Origin: Catenaria anguillulae PL171
Taxonomy: Eukaryota > Blastocladiomycota > Blastocladiomycetes > Blastocladiales > Catenariaceae
Direction of reading: 5' to 3'
DNA: 64,000 nt
Assembly (NCBI GenBank): GCA_002102555.1
Contig: MCFL01000007.1
Location: 620,001-684,000, forward strand
Each line of letters opens with the position of its first letter. Positions within the stretch are counted from its first letter, which is position 1. The position numbers and the translations under genes are program-made. Positions 539-11,347 of this stretch are shown here, piece by piece. A model generated the notes under the pieces. It was not told the origin of the DNA, did not search any database, and was given only the letters and a program-made list of their open reading frames with translations.

Positions 539-1023
539 GTTATCGTCGCGGTTGTCGTCAGTGTTGTCCGTGTTGTCGAATCAAGGAGAGCGGCAGACAT
601 GAAATGCGACCAGATGGGCGGTCAATGCGGTCTGCGGCGGGACGTTCGATGGGATGGTGGTCTTGCGGACGAGTTTAGCAGAGTACATAATGCACTTATG
701 TGGAGACGGGGCATGAATCTCAATGTTTTGACAAGCAAGAGACACTTGGTTCCTGCCACCGTCGAAACGCTCCCGAACCCAAGCGAAAGCGGCCACTCCG
801 GCACCAAAGCCACTGTCACCCTTCTTGTCCTCATCGTCTGCGGGTGCATCGTGGTCATGTTGGATATGGAGTGCTAGGGGGGTCTGTTGGGGCAATTGAG
901 CTCGTCAAGAAGGCAGCGGAGACTAACTTATCGGCTCTATAGGAAAAGCTTCGTGGCAGCAGCGAGCACGCCTATTGATACACGTTTTTTTGAGACAACA
1001 TGCAGACTCGTCAAGTGTTCACG
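539..1023. other. Non-coding stretch between NDK half and left inverted repeat
   Basis: Only short overlapping frames on both strands are present, with no recognisable domain. The sequence directly after the last NDK codon starts with GT, so it could be the beginning of a very long intron, but the donor is weak. Confidence 0.4.
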
Positions 1024-1272
1024 ACCACGTCATAAATAAAGCAGCAAGATTGCCTCCACATTCAAGATGTGAGGTTGCACAACTAAAATAGCAGGAGAGA
1101 CCGCGCCCGGAGGCAGCAGAACAGACCGCGCCCGTAGGCAGCAGAACAGACCGCGCCCGTAGGCAGCAGAACAAGGTCGAGAGAGTAGGCAGCAAAGGAG
1201 AGGAGACCGCGCCCGGAGGCAGCAGAACAGACCGCGCCCGGAGGCAGCAGAACAAACCGCGCCCGCAGCGAG
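1024..1272 (-). repeat. Left terminal inverted repeat: about 75-bp tail plus 25-bp tandem units
   Basis: Read on the minus strand, this holds about six units of roughly 25 bp (core GCTGCCTNCGGGCGCGGTCT), then a unique tail running from CTATTTTAGTTGTGCAACCT to GACGTGGT. The same tail, with a few mismatches, ends the copy at 19,075-19,312 in the opposite orientation. The array begins about 60 bp after the stop codon of the fusion gene at 1334, so it may form its 3' UTR. One unit is interrupted by an unrelated stretch near 1170-1195. The apparent Cys/Leu-rich reading frames here are translations of the repeat. Confidence 0.9.
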
Positions 1273-1333: not shown

Positions 1334-4300
1334 TCAGAGCTCGTCATACTGGAAAAAGTGAACCCGATCCAAAAGGAGATCTGAACGCGTGAAGAGAAGG
1401 CCAAGCACGTAATTGACGAGGGAGTCCAAGTACCGCTCCCATGCCTCATCCATGTCTGGCGGAACGAACCATTCAAAGTGGTCGGTTACCCGGTTCCAGC
1501 CCTCGACAAATAAGGTTTGCGGCTTGTCAAATGATCGCAACCGTTCTCGCCCCAGGCCGGCATTGACGCGAAGCAAGTGACGATCGGATCGGCCGTGAAA
1601 GATGTCCCCTTTGCCGCCAAGAGCTGCTGCGGTGCGCCTGGCTTGACGAATTGGGTCGTACAACGTCTGATGACCACGGCGGTGCATATCCTCGTCGATC
1701 TCGACCACGACACACCTGTCCCTTGTGTGGGCCTTGTCCCAACTCGGTGTCCGTGAAATACGGTCCTCGAGTGCCCTAGTATATCCATGCGTGGTGGGAT
1801 CAAGGCAAATGACCAGGTCGTAACGGTACTTGCGGCCGTCATCGGACTGGTACGCTTCGGCCCGCCATTTCAACTTGAGGCCGAGCTGCTCCAATCGAAG
1901 TTCCAAGTTGCGCAAAATCAAGAATTCTCGCGACTTGAATCCTTGGCAGCCGAGGTTGCGCAACGTCTCCCGTGTATGGGCTGAACACAGGCGGCCACCA
2001 AACTCATGGCAAAACAAACCATTCGCCTTGGTACGATTGCGGCACCGTTTCGTGATTGCGCCCTTGTAAAGTTCTTGATAGGCACACCCTTCGAGAGACC
2101 GCCGAACATCGACCAAGCCAAGCTTGTCGACGCACTCCTCGCAAAAGTAAAGGCCGCGGCCCTCAAGCCTTGTACGTTGACAGTACCAGCGTTTCGAGCG
2201 GCCAGCCCGGCAGTTGGGAGTTGAGCAGGTCCTGGTCCGCCGATGATGGGCTTCAAGCTCCGAGTCCGATTGGGATTTCGGCGGTTGCATGCGGCCATGC
2301 TTCTCGTCGAGGTAGCGGCGGTGCGTTGCTACCCGGCGCGCGATTCCACCATCAGGTTGGCGAAGGATGTATTGCTGAGCGAGAGGGTTGCCCATGGCAG
2401 CGGCACAGTCGATTGAGCACGCGGCGGACAGGAGTGGCACCCAATAACGAGGGTACTTTGGATCGCCAATTTTGGCACGATTTTGGCTGGAATAGTTGCA
2501 TGTCCGTTTGACGCGACCATGCTGGTGGAACTGGCGTGGACAGTACCGACCCATCCGCCATGCCTCAACTGGCGCACACTTGTGGCAATACACGGACCGC
2601 ACAACCGTCCGTGAAGGATCAAGAATGGCGTAGCACGCCTCGCCTTCGCCATAAAAGTATCGAATGTTGACATGGCATTTGGAGCACTGCAATTGATTCG
2701 AGTGGGTAAGCGCATTTGAGAACATAAACTTGGCCATCATCAGCTGCAATAGGTTCGAGGATGCCGCAAGCCGTCGGGAATCGTGCGGGTCGGTAAAGAC
2801 GTGATGGAGCGCACACAATCCGTCCGCGTTTGGAATGACAACACCACGCTGGTCCGCACGGGCCGCCTGAAAGTGGCAGGTTTCAACGCAACGCCTACCG
2901 GCCATGACTTTAAACGCACAAGGGTGAAGGCGAGTAACGATGTTCACCCCGAGGGCGAGGGCACACGGAAAGCAGAGAATTTCCTTGGTCGGTGCGCCAG
3001 TAGCATCGGCGCGTCGCGTTTTAACCGAGTAACTCTTGCACAACCGCGTGGAGCACTTCTCGGTACGGAGTGTGATCTTGCCTGTTGTGGGGTCTTGGAC
3101 GCGGGCACTGCGACGTGGTACGCCGTTGGCGTCATCGATTTGCAACTGATGTTTGATGCAAAAGGTGTTCTCGTTCCGGGTCCTGGTCTTGCACCCTTCC
3201 ACGCAACGGCCCCACTTGTCCATACCGCGGTATGCGCACGGGAGGTAGACGTTGATGACTGGGAAGTCGTCGTAGTGCTCCTTGCAAACACGAACAGTTG
3301 TTGGCTGACCATTGAAGTCCAGAATGAAGTGGTTGCAATTGAAATTGATGTGATCGCAGGAGTAGCAAGCCTTTACAAACGCGTGACGTGTTACTGACGG
3401 GCGAGGTCGCAGTGGCGTGCAGCTGACAAATTAGGCATGGTGAAAATGGGAGATCAGTAATGGCAACAGAGGTCGAAAGGAATAGGGGAACGTACTCTGA
3501 CTCGGGCATGGGTGCATGCAACAAGGTATCTGGCTCGGGGGTAATGGCGGCATCCATGCTGTGCCGGGTGCGTTTGACCAAAGGCGCGCTTGCGGATCCC
3601 TCGGCCATGCCTGCCTGCTCGACCGTATCCGGATCCGAAATAGCAGCAGTAGCGCGTGAGCGCTTCGCGGGTTTCGGCGTCACCGTCTTGGACGCAAACG
3701 GCATGCTTTTGGTACTGGCAAGTGGCGGCGAACTTGCCGAGAGTGAGGAGAGTGAGGAAACCGGCGAGGAAGCGGCGGGCGGCGCGGCTTGCGAGTTGAC
3801 GAGGACTGGAGATGACTCTCGCCGTGCGCGCTTCCCGGGCGGCTTGGATTTACCCGCGGCCGCTGGTTTTGGCGCGGGAACGGGTTTGGATGTTGCTGAC
3901 CTCGGCGCGGTCTCAGTCGTGTAGTGGGTTGCGGCAGAGGTGGGTGGAGTGGCGGGCGTGAGCGAATCAGAGTCGCGATCCGAAGAGAGAGGCGGGCGTT
4001 TGCGTTTTTGGTTGTTGACTGTGGCCTTATTCTTGGACGAAACCGGTTTCGGCGCGACCGGCTTCGGTACGGATCGACGAGCAGGCCCGGCTGAGACGAA
4101 ATCTTCATACAAATCCCCGTCCGAGTCGGAAATATTGTACGCCGTTGACTTGTTGGACGCGGCCGTTTTTGGCGCGACAGACTTGCGGGACGCAGCCACG
4201 ATGGGCGCGACAGACTTGCGGGACGCAGCCACGGTGGGCGCGACAGACTTGCGGGACGCAGCCACGGTGGGCGCGACAGACTTGCGGGACGCAGCCACGA

Positions 4301-5462
4301 TGGGCGCGACGGGCTTGGACGACGCAGCCACGATGGGCGCGACGGGCTTGGACGACGCAGCCACGATGGGCGCGACGGGCTTGGACGACGCAGCAGCGAG
4401 ACCGTGACCGGCGGAACCTGGGGTACCCGTCTGGACCGACAGCACGCGAGACATTTCATCTGTCCGCACATAGAAGAGCATGTAGGCACCTTTCTTGATG
4501 TCTTCGCGATGCACACCCCCGGCTTCGACGGAAATAGTCTCGTCATTGTACTGGATCCACTTGCCCGTTGAATGGTGGCGGACAAGCGTGTAGTAATGGC
4601 CGGCATCGAGCGTGGTGCCCTGGTGGACGATGATTGCATGCAGCTTGTACTCCACGTGGGTGGCGTCGACACACTTGAGCCGATCCGAGTTGAGCGTGAT
4701 GGGAACGTCAATGGCATTGTTGAGCTTGAGGGTACGCGTCTGGTCCCCAGTACCCGTGGTGTCGAAGCGGGCAAGTTGAATGACGAGGAGGGGTGGCAGA
4801 TGAGACATCTTGTCCGTCTTCATGCGGCCGTCAGCCATTTCTTCGCCGACAAAGTACGCCTTCAAGCAATCGTCGAGTGTGTCTGAATGAATGGCCGGAA
4901 CAAACACTTGCACGTGAGTGAGACCGGAAAAAAAAACGAAAACAAAAAAACGCAACGACTGTGCACATACCCGCACGCAAACCCACGGTCAAATGCGTCA
5001 TCGATTCCGAGGCGGACGCCCGGGGTACGTCATTGCCTTGTTGCATGAACGTGACCATGTCAAACGCAAACATGCCATCGACCACGCTCGCAAGGTCCGG
5101 GAGGCCGTTCTCGTCATTACGCATGAAGTCGAGCAGTGGGCTGAGCAATTCGTGCGCATCTTCTTGGACCCAAACGTGGCGGATACCGGCGGAGGCGATG
5201 AAGTTCGACGGGTCGATGATCGCGTCGGCGGAAGCTTGATCCATATCCCGCAAAAGGCGGCTCAAGTGCGCCAGTGTGTTGCGGGTGACTTTGAAATCAT
5301 TGTGAGAATCGGGGTTCCAGTCGGTAGACACATCTGCACGGGGGATACTGGCGTGCTCGACGATGGCTTTGCCCAAGGCTTTGATGTTGTGGAGGGACTG
5401 GAGCACCGCGTTTGTGTAGCATGTGTGGCCCAGGTTCCTCAGGCGGGCGCCAGTGAGGGGGG

Positions 5463-5532
<70 letters not shown>

Positions 5533-5625
5533 GGTGTTGTTGTTGAAGGACGACATGTTGTTGTTGTTGGTGTTGTTGTTGAAGGACGACATGTTGTTGT
5601 TGTTGGTGTTGTTGAAGGAAGACAT
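1334..5625 (-). CDS. Ubiquitin-specific protease fused to a Cys/His-rich region and a PD-(D/E)XK-like nuclease
   Basis: Three exons (5625-4971, 4906-3496, 3422-1334) join in phase into 1384 codons. Introns are 64 and 73 bp with GTATGT and GTACGT donors. Residues 1-60 are Asn/Ser-rich. The USP domain follows, with the Cys box NLGHTCYTNAVLQSL (Cys69) and the His box AGHYY (His322); the usual zinc ribbon between them is not visible. Seven 11-residue repeats (AASSKPVAPIV type) and a Lys/Ser/Pro-rich linker come next. Exon 3 carries many Cys/His pairs of the form CxxxC...CxxH, reminiscent of EsV-1-7-type repeats. It ends in a domain with YDLVICL (Asp about 1224), VVVEIDEDMH (Glu about 1263) and HLLRVNAGL, a pattern typical of nuclease-like proteins of giant viruses. 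Inferred role: a protease-nuclease effector. The weak point is the second splice, which decides fusion versus two adjacent genes. The start at 5625 is a choice among in-frame Met codons. Confidence 0.7.
4160..4395 (-). repeat. 33-bp tandem repeat coding seven 11-residue units
   Basis: In-frame repeat inside the linker of the USP fusion gene. Three units read AASSKPVAPIV; the later ones change to AASRKSVAPTV or similar. The two subtypes are grouped, which suggests stepwise local expansion. Confidence 0.85.
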
Positions 5626-5661: not shown

Positions 5662-6261
5662 GCTTTGCTTGGTTCGTACGATGTGGATGGATTACAGCGT
5701 CGTAAGGATGAGAGAGATACGGCCGAAGGGGGGGGGGTGCGCGAGGTTTATGAGAGTCGTGGGAAGTCGTGGGTGGAAATCTTGGCGATCAGAAGTCGTG
5801 GGAAAATTGTGGTCACGCGGTTGTTTTTGTGGGGTAGGTAAAATTCACCACTGCTCTAGGATCGGCGTCCCTATTCTGGTAGGCGTCCCCACCGCTTCCA
5901 CAAACATTCCAATCGTTTCTCGGCCTTGGTAGGTTTAGGATTAGGTTCAGCGCCGGCAGGCGCTGCCTTTTTGCAATGTCGACCGTTAGGTTCGGTTAGG
6001 TTCAGCGCCGGTAGGCTCTGCCTTTTAGCAACGATCCCTCGTGGCGGTGAACGTTAAGATGGTGAAAGTTAAGAAGGATCGGCAGTTGGTGAACGATAAG
6101 CAGGTGAACGATAGGTTCACCCCTCCTCAGTGCAGTTTTCTTCAGGCCGCCGATCGCGAACCTGAAGTGGCATCGAGTTTGGTGGATGTGGATCCACCAA
6201 AAAGCGCGAGTGAATATGTATGTAGTGTTCGTTTGTATAACTATGCACAGCTCAGTCACCT
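5626..6261. promoter_or_regulatory. Shared divergent promoter region with direct repeats
   Basis: About 636 bp between the starts of the minus-strand USP fusion gene and the plus-strand gene at 6262. Two imperfect 34-bp direct repeats lie 54 bp apart at 5944-5977 and 5998-6031 (AGGTTCAGCGCCGG start). A shorter repeat, GGTGAACGATA, occurs twice near 6087-6111. A regulatory role is inferred from position only. Confidence 0.5.
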
Positions 6262-9200
6262 ATGAATAGCCCTGATCCTATCGTCTCTTGGTTGCCGAAC
6301 TCGTTCGTGTCTGCCTTCTCGGCAAAAAGCACAGACACTGCAATGGACCTCGAGACACGAGCCGTGCAAGAACAAACTCCAAGTCCAGCCACTCGACCGC
6401 CTATCGAACAGCCCCAGGAAAGCTCCATAACCCCGGCCGCGAGCGGCATGCAGAGCACCAGTGGTGTCATCGGCAATTCTCTGGCAACTGTCGCCCAGCT
6501 CACTTTCACTGGCGGCTTGGGTTTACCAGAGAGCAACGCGTCCATTCCTCCAGCCAAGTCAAAGGCAGACATGTCGTCGTCGTCGTCGTCCGCATCCGGA
6601 CAAAAAGTCACATATCATTACGACTCTGACGATGATTCGTTCATCGAACTGTCTGAGGTCAAGACGACATTTGATGCGGTTGTGCAAGACTTGCGTCGCC
6701 AGGGTGTCCCGGTCACTCACATTGCGGGAGACAAGTACATGATTGCTGGCATACCAGTGACCTTGAATGGTATGGTTGAGTTGAAGCGGGCGGTCATGGG
6801 TACGGCCTCTTTGTCTTCACACATAAACAAGGCATGCATATTCAGTTGTTTGACCTCATTTTAAATCTATTTCAAATCTCACAGATGGAATTTGGGTCAA
6901 GACGCAGCCGGGTTTCCCTTTGCGGGCTTCTCAAAGGAGTCGCCTGATCCAACCAACGTCAACTTCTTCACCTCAACTTCAGTCAGCTCAACCAACGGTT
7001 CCCGCGCCTTATCGACCTCCATCACCAAACCCACACGACACCATACTCGACCTCGACGCTGTCGACCCACGTTCGACTGGGACCAGGCGCCAGGCACCTC
7101 AATCTCAGTCTTACCCTGTCCCGCTCACCTCCATATCGGACGACAAGAATACGCGTGCGACACGAGTTGAGCCGAAAGCACCTAAAAATCGTCCAAACGG
7201 CTCTCAATCTCATCGAAGTCAAGTTCACTCTACGAGCGCCTCCCCTGTCCCACAATCTCTTCCCCTGCCATCCCCCGCACCGGCCGCCAGCAGCCAATTA
7301 GGTGGCGTGGGTGTCGTTCCAGGCCGACCCAACCCTCTTGCCATCATTTCTCAACCAACGCTCAATACGATTGTACGGAGCCTCGGACATCGCGAAGAAA
7401 TGTCGCGTGTACTCGGCGAAGTGTTGCGGGTATCTCAGTCCACGCTCGACTTGATTTCCGGCGTGGCAGCAGTTTGCACTCAAGTCGCTCTGAGTGGCTT
7501 TGCTCTCTGGGATACGGGATTCGAAAAGATTTCATTGCCACCAAGCTCGATGCAAGACCCATTGCGTTTCGGTGACCTTGTGTCATGCCTTGAAGCCGGA
7601 CGTACTGTGGATGTCAACAACAACGTCATGTGGGCCGGCATCGACAAAGTTTTACGGGCGCGCGACTTACGGCTTGCCTACGTTCTGCTTACCGATATGT
7701 GCAATGCACTTGGCGTGTCGATTCTTTCCTCTGGATTGCTCAAGATCACGAGCGATTTCATCACGTTCAACTGCCCGGATCGCTGCCCCATCGAGATCGT
7801 CGTCTGCCTCCTTATGGTCATGACAAACAAGCAAGAACAGTTTTTTGACCTCTTTTCACCATCCTCGACCGATCCGGACATCCGCGAGTACAAGACTGGC
7901 TTTGTCAACTTTGTTCGTCGTCTTTTTGGCGGGGCAACCGGATCCAAGGACCGCCAGTTCTTCTTTTCATTTTTACGACTTGGACCGATCCTTCTCGCTT
8001 GCATCCTCGGAGGAGAATGGAATGGTATCAATATTCCCCCGCTCTCCAAGACCGACTTTGTTCAAGGCAACTATTCATGTTTGGTCGACGTCCTGTTGCG
8101 ACTCGATCCAGAGATTTGGTGCTGGTATGGCGAAGAGTGCATTGCCATGATTCTCCGCGGATTTGGGCTGAATCCTCAAGACAAGTATTGCGGCAGTGTG
8201 CCACGCTCGTCGACAAGCCATGGTTCTGACAGCCATGAGCCTGTGGACACTCAATCGGATCCCTTTGACGCACCCGTCGACCGCAACGATTGGCCCAACA
8301 CGAACTGTGATCTGGCGCTACTGGGTGGGTTTGCACTCGCTGGGAACAAGCTGCGTGGGGCCGAGTTTTCCGTCACGGCGTCTCACATCAATGTACGAGT
8401 TCCTGGGTGCAGTGACGGTTGCACGGGATCCGGTTCGGCCGGGCATGAAACTTCTGTCTTCTATGCTCTTGCACGGTACTTGGAGGGCCATGTCCGCCGC
8501 AATTTTTCCCGCAAGCAACAAGCCCTTTTCCGTCCGATTTTGCGCTTGTTTTCGCCAGTCTTCAACGTGGCGACTTACGCGACAACCAAGGTGCCTATGT
8601 TGAAAAAGGTGTTTCTGGGCCCGCCGACATTTGCGAGCAATAAAACGGGATCAACTGGTGAGCCAGCCGGCCTCGCCGAAGCAGCACGGTCACTTTTCGA
8701 ATCCATCTTTCGCCGTCCCAGCGTCACCGCCAATGTTACGCCGATGCCCATGCAACACGCCGTCAGTTTGTATCGACTTGGCTCACCGCGAAAGATTGCC
8801 CAAGACGGATCGGAAGAGGGGGCGGTGTTTGTTGGGTGTACTCATGAAATGCTGCCAGACAATTGCCGCGTCCGCGAGTACTTGTTCAGCGCGCCCGACG
8901 ACATACCGTTCGAGTTGTTGTTTGCGCGCGATGAGCCTGGCCGTGGCAGTGGCGGTGGCGATTCTGATTCTCGGGCGGCAGGCGAGGCCAAGCAAGACGA
9001 TTCCGACGAGGGCACCACAGCGCAAACGAGTACAGATGGATCAGGCACGGTGCCTCGGCGTGCAAGGCACCAGCGTGCTTCTAAGTCGGCTGTGAAGCTA
9101 GGACAACATCCCAGTGTACGTGGATCGGAGCACGTGCCGGACGGCGCATCAAGAGCGCGATTTTCCAGGACAAAGCGCAAGCGCACTGCAACACATTTTG

Positions 9201-9424
9201 GGTCCACCGCCAAGTCTCGCCAAGGGCAAAAGTTCACTGTCGCGCAAGGGGGAGCTCCAAGTGACGAAGGACTCGATAGTGATATCGAGTTGCGGAAGCG
9301 GATCTTTTCATCCAAAGGCTGCTCGCACAAGGATAGCGACGACGAGGATAGTGACGACAAGGATAGCGACGACGAGGATAGCGACGACGAAACTCGGTGT
9401 GTCAAACGTCTGCGCATCGTGTGA
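6262..9424 (+). CDS. Orphan 1025-residue protein with acidic C-terminal repeats
   Basis: Two exons, 6262-6799 and 6885-9424, join in phase across an 85-bp intron (donor GTACGG, acceptor CACAG) to give 1026 codons including the stop. The N-terminal 100 residues are Ser/Pro-rich, then comes an acidic patch (YDSDDDSFIELSEV). A second low-complexity stretch follows. The middle (roughly residues 350-680) is globular, rich in hydrophobic helices with several Cys. The C-terminus is basic/Ser-rich and ends in DSDDEDSDDKD repeats and RLRIV. I recognise no domain and no transposase or recombinase signature. It is transcribed divergently from the USP fusion gene, so co-regulation is plausible. The basic/acidic tail suggests a nuclear protein (inference). 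Confidence 0.7.
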
Positions 9425-10069
9425 TTGGAATCGGAGCGAGCTGGTGAGGAGGGAGATTTTCTTTTGATGCCCAAACAGATGAGCAGCATTCCGGCTCTCG
9501 AAATGATAAGGTTGTTTTGTGTGAGGGGACGAAACTCATTCCCGATTGAGATCCTATATCGTTCGTTGATGCTTTCCACATTTCCCTTTCAATCGCCCGA
9601 GCGGACATTTGCAAATTGTGACCACTTTGCGTTTGGTAAGGGCGAGATTTCGTCCAAATGCACCAATTTTGACAATTGCATCAGTGTGTGGCCTGGGATG
9701 CAGACACGTGGTATCGCGTCCAAACCGATCGACACGTCCGACCGAGTCGCCGATTGGTCGGATGCCAACAACCGGCTGGATCACAAACTTTGTTTGCCTT
9801 CCAGGGCGTCCAGGAGGGCTCGTCTTCCGTGGCCACTGACTGCTGACACAATCCCTGGTGACTTCCCCCACGTATGCCCCCTCTTCTCGCGATCGGTACT
9901 TCAGCCCACCTGCCGCCTGGACCCAACGTCGACGCCGATACCGCCGCCGTTACCCCGGCCCACCGGTCAATCCCCGATGCAAGCTGCCCACGTTCAACAT
10001 GTTCTTCAGCTCCAGCAAGGGCATCTCGCCGAGCGCATTGAGACAATCAAGGTTCACGTTAACCGTGCT
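9425..10069. other. Gene-poor stretch
   Basis: One open plus-strand frame runs through here, but its composition is not protein-like and no domain is visible. It may be UTR and decayed coding sequence leading into the repeated family fragments downstream. Confidence 0.35.
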
Positions 10070-10187
10070 CAATTTGGGCTGTACGAAGCGACTGGAAGTA
10101 TTTAGTTGCCGCCAACGAGACATTCAGGAATGCGTGTTTCTTCCCCATTCAACTCCATGTGTACGTCCACATTTCGATACATTTTTT
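10070..10187 (+). repeat. Direct repeat copy A of a gene-end fragment
   Basis: Closely similar to 11,184-11,294: both contain an ATTGGGCTGT-like 3' coding end, a GGAAGTA stop region, GAATGCGTGTTTCTTCCCCA and a TACGTCCACATTTCGATACA tract. They are 3' ends of two diverged copies of one gene family. Confidence 0.8.
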
Positions 10188-10659
10188 GGCGCATGTTTAG
10201 GTTGCTCGCTGGGTTGCTCGATCATCCGTGATGTTTACTTACCCTTCCGGCTGCACTTCGTTCTCGAGACGCCGTACCAGCCCAGTTACGTCATCTGCGA
10301 CCAAGTCGTTCGTTCAACAGCTGCGTTCGGCTGTGGACATTCGGGGCCTGTAACTCGGCTGCATTCTTCCTGGGGTATGTACCCTCGTTAGCCACCACCT
10401 AGCCCATCTTCTCTCACCGTGACCCAATCCGGCCGTTTGCGGTTAAAGCTCATGCGTCCATTTTTGCCTTGATTCACGTTCCTTCGAGATCTTTGCCTTG
10501 GCTGCCGGAGCGGGTGCAGTGTGGTCGCAGCCATTGCACGTTTCCGGCTCGCGTGCCCGTTAGCAGACACTGCCCTTGCCACGTCCCGCTACTTATGCGT
10601 GCGTGGCAGACATGCCATGGGACCATTGCAATCCATTCGACGGACTGACCAACTGAAAT

Positions 10660-11216
10660 GGCGCGTTTTGACCTCGGCCGCGTTTGCCGGGAGCCCAAGC
10701 GAGGCGTTTGCGCATCGATTCGTCGATGTGTATGGGTACGAGGAACTCGAGTGGTTTGTGGAGCGTGCCCAGCCTGCATACGCAATCATGACCTGGCATC
10801 GCAACTCGTACTCCAATGACTACGACTCCGACTCCGACTCCGACTCCGACTCGGAATCATACTCCTCCGACTCGGACAAGTAAGTACGCCACCCGCTCAC
10901 CCTGTGACTGAAATCTGTCTTCTGTCAATTCAAGGCATGCAACTGACCCGTCCACATTGCACACTCGTGCACATCCTATCAATTCATGTCATGTCCATAG
11001 CGAAACGTGCCCTGGCTGCGACGGCAAGTGCGGCGCCTCGAGCTGCAACGATCACTACGTTGCCCGCTTTCTCCTTTCGTCGCCGTTGACCGAAAACGCG
11101 TTCGCCTCAACCAACAATCCCGCAACCATCGTGTACCGCGCGTGCATGGCCGACATGCCATGGGACCAGTTTAAGACGTGCTTAAATTGGGCTGTGCAAA
11201 GCTACTGGAAGTAGTC
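10660..11216 (+). pseudogene. Two-exon fragment of a GRDP/DUF7587-like family member
   Basis: An exon ending near 10,880 (SEAFAHRFVDVYGYEEL, then a run of DSDSDSD) joins at a GTAAGT donor to an exon from about 11,001. The second exon has spaced cysteines (ETCPGCDGKC, SSCND) and ends in WAVQSYWK and a stop at 11,214-11,216. The 53-bp stretch at 10,696-10,748 is almost identical to 12,289-12,341 in the neighbouring gene, so the two are paralogues. No 5' exon with a start codon is visible, so it is probably a truncated copy. Function unknown. Confidence 0.5.
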
Positions 11217-11294
11217 CTTTGCCAATGAGACATGCAAGAATGCGTGTTTCTTCCCCATTCAGCTCCGTACGTCCACATTTCGATACATTTTTTT
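11184..11294 (+). repeat. Direct repeat copy B of a gene-end fragment
   Basis: Partner of 10,070-10,187, offset by about 1.1 kb. It covers the last codons and 3' flank of the fragment above. Confidence 0.8.
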
Positions 11295-11347
11295 GTCCTC
11301 CTCGTCTGATACTAAATAAGATTTTCCCAAATCCTTTCCCGCCCACC

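Follow-up and report, generated by a model that had tools for sequence, protein, structure and literature searches.

The gene and its domains

The window analyzed here is a 64,000-nt stretch of the genome of Catenaria anguillulae PL171, an aquatic fungus that infects nematodes (MCFL01000007.1, 620,001-684,000); coordinates are positions within it. The gene, on the minus strand, has three exons (5625-4971, 4906-3496 and 3422-1334) that join in phase through two short introns, as the original prediction had it, giving one open frame of 1384 codons whose single stop is terminal. Splicing of both introns is predicted from this frame. The gene comprises the following elements.

4971-5625, minus strand: exon 1, with the Met, a poly-Asn leader and the USP Cys box (Asn64, Cys69)
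4907-4970, minus strand: intron 1, 64 nt, GTATGT...AAG
3496-4906, minus strand: exon 2, with the remaining USP domain including the His box (His322, Asn339) and a Ser/Pro/Lys-rich linker with basic KR clusters
3423-3495, minus strand: intron 2, 73 nt, phase 2, GTACGT...CAG
1334-3422, minus strand: exon 3, with Cys/His repeats and a nuclease-like C-terminus
4470-5445, minus strand: USP (UCH, peptidase C19) domain, Pfam PF00443, split by intron 1
4171-4394, minus strand: 6.8 copies of a 33-bp tandem repeat that encodes the repetitive linker
1949-3376, minus strand: Cys/His-rich region (residues ~705-1180), divided by eye into four tandem units
1811-1828, minus strand: YRYDLV motif, from residue 1221, candidate D of a nuclease site
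1682-1711, minus strand: VVVEIDEDMH motif, from residue 1260, candidate E-x-D site without a lysine
1556-1576, minus strand: LLRVNAG strand, from residue 1305

Identification of the N-terminal domain as a predicted USP deubiquitinase is well supported. Residues 61-364 match the Pfam UCH family (PF00443, E 1.3e-39) with a score of 136.8 bits against a curated cut-off of 23.9, and a PDB search returned 100 distinct sequences at E<=0.001, with USP7 first among the 60 matches listed. The Cys and His boxes read from the sequence at the outset are intact: Asn64, Cys69, His322 and Asn339 stand at the expected positions, by their letters and by alignment with USP7. By correspondence with USP7, we take these residues to be the catalytic Cys, His and Asn/Asp and the oxyanion Asn, the complete set for a member of peptidase C19. 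No domain other than the UCH family scored above the Pfam cut-offs in the protein.

None of 500 first-order Markov resamplings of the exon 3 region reached the 698 codons of its open frame (mean 169, maximum 550). Residues 690-1180 contain 35 Cys and 21 His; Cys/His units 1, 2 and 4 are mutually similar above shuffles, while unit 3 is not. In the alignment with a diverged paralogue (C435), 14 of 15 Cys residues are kept, against 63 of 189 non-Cys residues. The four units are putatively zinc-binding, and the region is probably DNA-binding. The Cys spacing, judged by eye, resembles that of the EsV-1-7 repeat; no EsV-1-7 match was listed by Pfam at E<=10, a search in which the HMMER filters drop weak matches.

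The C-terminal tail

The YDLV...VVVEIDEDMH...LLRVNAG block does lie at the C-terminal end of the protein, at residues 1221, 1260 and 1305, and had led to the proposal of a PD-(D/E)XK nuclease. That assignment holds at the level of motifs and is not demonstrated. Of the D...(D/E)-x-K active site, the D and an E-x-D (VEID) are present and the lysine is absent; a closely related copy at C414 reads VVVEIDEDMD, having lost the His of the motif, and the relics at C420 and C305 carry YRFDLV in place of YRYDLV. The tail matched no catalogued family in Pfam, NCBIfam or PHROGs. Two AF2 models of the C-terminus reached pLDDT values of 36 and 39, and their Foldseek lists conflict, restriction-enzyme folds in one case and aspartate kinase in the other; with pLDDT below 40 and contradictory lists, we claim no fold for the tail. 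Two DUF559 nucleases (PF04480) encoded at C20 of the same genome carry VIEYDEHHHN and AIEFDELHHN, which resemble VVVEIDEDMH, but the profile comparison with the tail did not rise above shuffles (hhalign 15.6, within the range of 60 column shuffles with mean 11.6 and maximum 19.5), and this kinship was rejected. A reading of the C-terminal YDEL as an ER signal was likewise set aside; the C414 copy ends in YDEF.

Paralogues and distant relatives

Two paralogues bear on whether the gene is one or two. At C414, a USP start is fused directly and in frame to the same C-terminus; the copy is 85% identical, shares the MSSFNN start and the 5' flank with the window gene, and is annotated as a single protein of 297 aa (BCR44DRAFT_37843). 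The C435 paralogue, at 36-40% identity, permits a 70-nt phase-2 intron to be read at the place of window intron 2 (L025 6432-6363). Both support the single polypeptide originally proposed over two separate genes. Exon 3 has eight matches in the genome and is full length in the window alone; relics of the USP or the nuclease part lie at further loci, and the sibling copies are partial or broken. The window gene belongs to a small family, so far known from Catenaria alone, whose members decay fast; among those found, it is the sole complete one.

A 5.8-billion-protein database yielded no relative outside Catenaria among the candidates scored, which numbered 6726 in one search and, in the others, the 8000 with most words in common. 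The nuclease-profile search alone gave matches, namely two Catenaria proteins. The VEIDE pattern with Cys/His repeats had been described as common in giant viruses, and a search there for the same USP and VEIDE architecture had been proposed; scans of viral_contigs with short peptide patterns and tblastn found no relative, and a giant-virus origin gains no support from them. The papers listed in a literature search do not describe the USP, Cys/His and VEIDE nuclease-like fusion, and within that range the claim that this is not a described family stands for the exact architecture; it does not extend to analogues, as the CifB proteins and transposase-deubiquitinase fusions discussed below are in print.

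Inverted repeats bound the locus

The gene lies inside a block with inverted-repeat ends, together with a partner, gene X.

986-1270, plus strand: left inverted repeat of 25-bp tandem units, with five copies of a 22-base core (<=3 mismatches) at 1099-1251
19076-19312, minus strand: right inverted repeat, with six copies of the core and 88.75% identity to 1024-1258
16949-19051, plus strand: gene X, adjoining the right inverted repeat

The core occurs 11 times in the 64-kb window, each time within one of these two ends, and at least four copies of the terminal repeat were found. As in a TIR DNA transposon, inverted repeats surround the unit at loci with unrelated flanks: the arrangement recurs at C414, and a BLASTN comparison of the 9.9-kb C414 stretch with the window gave no match outside the inverted repeats. 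No target-site duplication was seen at the window or C414 copies, whose 50-base flanks share scattered 5- to 6-mers and whose ends are not sharply defined. Pfam recognized no transposase in gene X, gene Y or 10 unspliced interior ORFs, chosen by eye (nine from 50 listed and one other). Considered as cargo with a transposase, the interior 11 kb gave no match above a Pfam cut-off among the ORFs scanned, the best being DUF7587 (E 0.0016, 19 bits against a cut-off of 27). Gene X has no Pfam match and is probably broken; indels that disrupt the frame separate the copy in the window from the one at C414. The one genomic match of gene Y is itself. The inverted repeats suggest that the block is a mobile or selfish unit. 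The selfish element entertained in the original prediction becomes more likely through this boundary and stays unproven, with neither target-site duplication nor recognized transposase; nothing met in the analysis spoke for the defence effector that the prediction named as another possibility.

Selection and age

Between the window and C435, synonymous change exceeds non-synonymous change (Fisher p 9.9e-11); against C414, constraint is weak (0.57, Fisher p 0.04). The USP part shows no sign of constraint relative to its nearest relic, C403: Ka/Ks is 1.06 and 2.98, and the test for a difference from 1 gives p 1.0 and 0.17. Against C91 the values are 0.82 and 0.63, which also do not differ from 1. 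Gene X gave 0.83. A window copy evolving neutrally since the C414 split would be expected to gain 4.2 to 8.5 nonsense changes, if half of the divergence fell on the window lineage; the observed number is zero (P 1.5e-2 to 2.1e-4).

BLAST identity between the window and C414 is 92.1% for gene X and 87.7% for the nuclease half. The idea that the halves of the block differ in age was dropped, since ungapped identities are 95.6% and 92.3% and synonymous divergence is not significantly different (0.073 and 0.124, p 0.12).

A proposed model and its alternatives

The reading that we favor, at a probability of roughly 0.35, is a single nuclear protein, consisting of a USP domain, a basic linker, four Cys/His units and a nuclease-like tail, that is encoded in an inverted-repeat block and acts as follows. 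The Cys/His units would bring the protein to DNA, possibly to the 25-bp units of the block's own ends, and the tail would cut or handle DNA at the docking site. The USP domain would deubiquitinate its own protein, or the chromatin and repair factors near the cut; this would shield the protein from the proteasome and favor persistence or movement of the block. The fusion and the inverted-repeat ends around it suggest, without proving it, a selfish element able to disable the disposal of proteins by the cell. Bolder, and improbable, is the proposal that the block represents a novel class of mobile or selfish elements in eukaryotes, with the Cys/His units recognizing the 25-bp arrays of its inverted ends, the C-terminus making the cut, and the USP domain removing ubiquitin tags from both the protein and the broken chromatin.

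Of the alternatives, an ordinary host gene survives best: a nuclear USP, extended in this lineage by a zinc-repeat tail, that serves chromatin or DNA repair and is present as segmental duplicates with incidental 3'-flanking repeats shared by neighbors. Accessory domains on USPs are nothing unusual in fungi, and the few copies of the terminal repeat, the missing target-site duplication and the lack of a recognized transposase fit such a gene. The recurrence of the inverted arrangement at a second locus, where the flanks are unrelated, does not, and the confinement to Catenaria among the protein candidates scored, the lone full-length exon 3 and the lack of a sign of constraint on the USP part also make it doubtful.

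A killer-type selfish gene resembling CifB or Spok, in which the tail would damage DNA while the USP domain stabilized the protein or served as the resistance part, is quite improbable. Decayed, rearranged copies would suit it, as would the functional pairing described for CifB (PMC11342252, PMC12445526) and the single-protein pairing of nuclease and kinase domains described for Spok (PMC9972908); but gene X, the sole partner, differs by frame-breaking indels between its two copies, the enzyme is a USP rather than Ulp1/OTU or a kinase, and the nuclease is unproven.

It is also quite unlikely that two adjacent genes have been wrongly joined, one for a USP that ends past the linker and another for the Cys/His-nuclease part. 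The exon 2 frame is open past the donor as far as 3132, so a USP-only protein could be made without intron 2, and no deposited protein with exon 3 was found among the candidates scored, which did include two Catenaria paralogue proteins. Homology of the linker ends between the window and C435 was rejected (233 of 2000 shuffles score as high), so the argument from C435 turns on the place and phase of the intron. Set against a split are the C414 fusion, the identical phase-2 join permitted in C435, and the absence of a Met in exon 3 before 3223, which is already within the Cys/His units; neither the window nor the C435 copy has a Met upstream of the first zinc knuckle. About equally improbable is a recently dead copy, open by chance and with no present role for its protein, which the Ka/Ks values against C403 and C91, the weak constraint against C414 and the broken siblings would allow, but which sits poorly with 1384 stop-free codons and retained USP active-site residues.

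Comparison with known systems

The window protein resembles USP7 and USP2 (peptidase C19) in its full UCH domain, its Cys and His boxes and its best PDB matches; unlike them, it has a poly-Asn leader, Cys/His repeats and a nuclease-like tail. In Wolbachia CifB, Ulp1 or OTU deubiquitinases are described as joined to PD-(D/E)XK domains (PMC11342252, PMC12445526), and types I and V-IX share with the window protein the union of a deubiquitinase and a PD-(D/E)XK-type part, here nuclease-like, in one polypeptide. The CifB proteins are described as bacterial, paired with CifA and equipped with four REase domains bearing E...D...EXK, and the cited descriptions mention no Cys/His repeats, which the window protein has. 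Set beside the CifB features given in PMC11342252, the window protein has a USP instead and no REase family match, and gene X has no Pfam match. A deubiquitinase is reported to stabilize a nuclease-containing selfish protein (PMC12445526), the kind of role envisaged here for the USP domain.

Deubiquitinase domains have also been described in the Ginger1, Mutator and IS5-like transposon proteins, including a Trichomonas vaginalis protein that carries transposase_11 and peptidase C19 together (PMC2836005). In these proteins, as perhaps in the window protein, an enzyme of a mobile element is linked to a ubiquitin/SUMO peptidase; the enzymes there are known transposases, whereas none was recognized among the ORFs scanned here, and the deubiquitinase of the window protein lies N-terminal to the nuclease-like tail. 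Like the fungal Spok killers, which are described as combining nuclease and kinase domains (PMC9972908), the window gene may be a fungal single-protein element pairing a nuclease or nuclease-like part with a second enzymatic domain; in Spok that domain is a putative kinase, there is no USP, and killing has been demonstrated experimentally. Transposon proteins and nuclease-containing selfish toxins have repeatedly been found to carry deubiquitinase domains, and an open-framed fungal USP gene with its own candidate binding sites and broken siblings offers a compact case in which protection of a DNA-acting part by a deubiquitinase could be tested in vitro.

Domain content of the window gene

The window gene is read on the minus strand as three predicted exons:

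5625–4971, minus, exon 1
4906–3496, minus, exon 2
3422–1334, minus, exon 3

As originally predicted, the exons join in phase across predicted introns of 64 and 73 nt, yielding a frame of 1384 codons with a single, terminal stop. The first Met of exon 3 (position 3223) already lies within the Cys/His units, and an upstream exon is therefore required; the exon 2 frame runs open past its donor up to 3132, so the splice is not forced by sequence alone.

The ubiquitin-specific protease (USP) call, made from the Cys and His boxes, is well founded: residues 61–364 match the Pfam UCH family (E 1.3e-39), a PDB search with the window protein returned 100 distinct sequences at E ≤ 0.001 with USP7 at the top, and Asn64, Cys69, His322, and Asn339 occupy the expected catalytic places, the roles of these four positions being presumed from USP7. 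The USP is followed by a Ser/Pro/Lys-rich linker bearing a 33-bp tandem repeat and several basic clusters, which may be nuclear signals. Residues 690–1180 contain 35 Cys and 21 His, and four units were marked off in this region by eye. Of these, units 1, 2, and 4 are mutually alike (1 of 500 shuffles reaches each pair's score); unit 3 is unlike the others, with 24 to 92% of shuffles scoring equally high. The diverged paralogue on contig C435 retains 14 of 15 aligned Cys, compared with 63 of the 189 remaining aligned residues. Across the region, synonymous change also exceeds non-synonymous change (p 9.9e-11), and the pattern points to putative metal-binding modules formerly under selection.

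One polypeptide or two

Contig C414 carries a copy that shares the window gene's 5′ flank, MSSFNN start, and USP Cys box, after which the last zinc unit and the nuclease-like tail follow in frame, with all between missing; the product is annotated as a single protein. Read most simply, this means that the USP start and the tail already lay in a single order and orientation in the ancestor. The C435 paralogue is readable with a 70-nt, phase 2 intron (GTGCGT...TATAG) whose end falls at the matching position ahead of the first zinc knuckle; linker-end similarity to the window gene is not above shuffles (233/2000). The C414 join and the C435 intron place support the single joined polypeptide of the original prediction, to which we assign a probability of roughly 0.85.

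Over 268 codons, the tail compared with C414 gives Ks 0.124 and Ka 0.071 (ratio 0.57, p 0.04). Assuming that half of this divergence fell on the window lineage, 4.2 to 8.5 nonsense changes are expected in the window copy under neutrality since its split from C414; none is present. USP pieces compared with relics on C403 (Ka/Ks 1.06 and 2.98) and C91 (0.82 and 0.63) do not differ significantly from 1, and purifying selection on the USP since those splits is therefore not demonstrable.

Copies in the Catenaria genome

The exon 3 protein has at least eight matches in the 41-Mb genome: the window copy, C414, C435, C172, C428, C138, C420, and C305. Only the window copy is full-length; three of the eight (C172, C428, C138) contain stops within the match, and C420 and C305 change frame within the motif region. 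USP relics lie on C403, C91, and C425 (144.8 kb), among 16 USP genome matches of which those beyond the named copies are weak. Beside the C403 relic is a Pro/His-rich stretch (SVYPGLPRIHPRPW) that recurs at window 15661–16461 (minus).

A profile search recovered two deposited proteins, BCR44DRAFT_37843 (assigned to C414) and BCR44DRAFT_35888 (C172), both from C. anguillulae PL171; judged from these matches, the family is so far seen in Catenaria only. No deposited protein with the window's exon 3 was found in the length ranges searched (378–1204 and 761–2422 aa), which may mean that the gene lacks annotation or was withheld. Contig C20 encodes two divergently oriented proteins of the DUF559 type, ~2.15 kb apart and both carrying E[YF]DExHH motifs (extracted stretches L056 1444–2127, minus, and L057 1099–1761, plus), possibly another mobile or virus-derived unit.

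An inverted-repeat block

The window gene's 3′ flank is repeated, inverted, at the 3′ end of a second gene, delimiting a block:

986–1270 and 19076–19312, inverted repeats
16949–19051, plus, gene X (MSTNNYNPNSN...), adjoining the right repeat
6241–9424, plus, gene Y, a large open frame with no family assigned

All 11 window copies of the 22-base core of a 25-bp unit lie in the block ends (5 and 6, in opposite orientation), as do all ten in the C414 stretch (4 and 6, likewise opposed). Within 4.1 kb, C414 has the same layout of repeat, gene X, USP-tail gene, and inverted repeat; when the C414 stretch (9.9 kb) was compared with the window by BLASTN, no homology extended past the repeats. In ungapped comparison the two loci are 92.3% identical over the tail coding sequence and 95.6% over gene X; the 5′ flanks stand at 91.3% and the two compared pairs of ends at 93%. 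Synonymous divergence of tail (0.124) and gene X (0.073) does not differ significantly, and these values are compatible with one copying event. Gene X has no Pfam match; frame-breaking indels between its two copies and a Ka/Ks of 0.83 indicate that at least one is broken. Diverged, broken relatives lie at C65 (30.8–31.7 kb) and C425 (435.6–436.5 kb).

Nothing in the C414 stretch matches the 11-kb interior (5841–16814). A dispersed repeat common to contig C223 starts at 5839, at the interior's left edge, which hints that the interior was inserted into the window's block. Pieces of 5839–6126 (81–200 bp) recur five times at C223:1030743–1031340, in both orientations and 83–96% identical; this repeat begins (5839) where C414 homology ends (5841). 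Gene Y, too, is unmatched in the C414 stretch, and its middle part matches only itself in the genome. Also in the interior, window 11948–12370 (plus) matches Pfam DUF7587 below threshold, at 19 bits (E 0.0016) where the cut-off is 27.

With inverted repeats at two loci, the block looks like a mobile element. Against this, no target-site duplication was found at either locus, no transposase was matched by Pfam in the ORFs scanned, the ends are fuzzy, and only four copies of the block end were found, a lower bound. The selfish-element setting originally suggested is plausible but unproven.

Proposed roles and known systems

The window gene is a real, open, unusual fusion. The analysis shows its domain content; we infer all of its activities. 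Drawing on deubiquitinase-bearing transposons and CifB toxins, we propose that the USP would protect its own protein or deubiquitinate local chromatin, that the zinc units would dock the protein on DNA, and that the tail would cut it. The fusion is unusual, as first proposed, and its family is so far seen only in Catenaria, but functional pairings of deubiquitinases with DNA-acting domains are already known, and it is therefore not a new category. PMC2836005 describes OTU or Ulp1 domains in transposases of the Ginger1 and Mutator groups, and peptidase C19 in a transposase from Trichomonas; a deubiquitinase domain is common to these and the window protein. According to PMC11342252 and PMC12445526, CifB toxins place deubiquitinases, said to help stabilise CifB, beside PD-(D/E)XK domains; CifB and the window protein both pair a deubiquitinase with a nuclease-type region, although the window tail is nuclease-like only.
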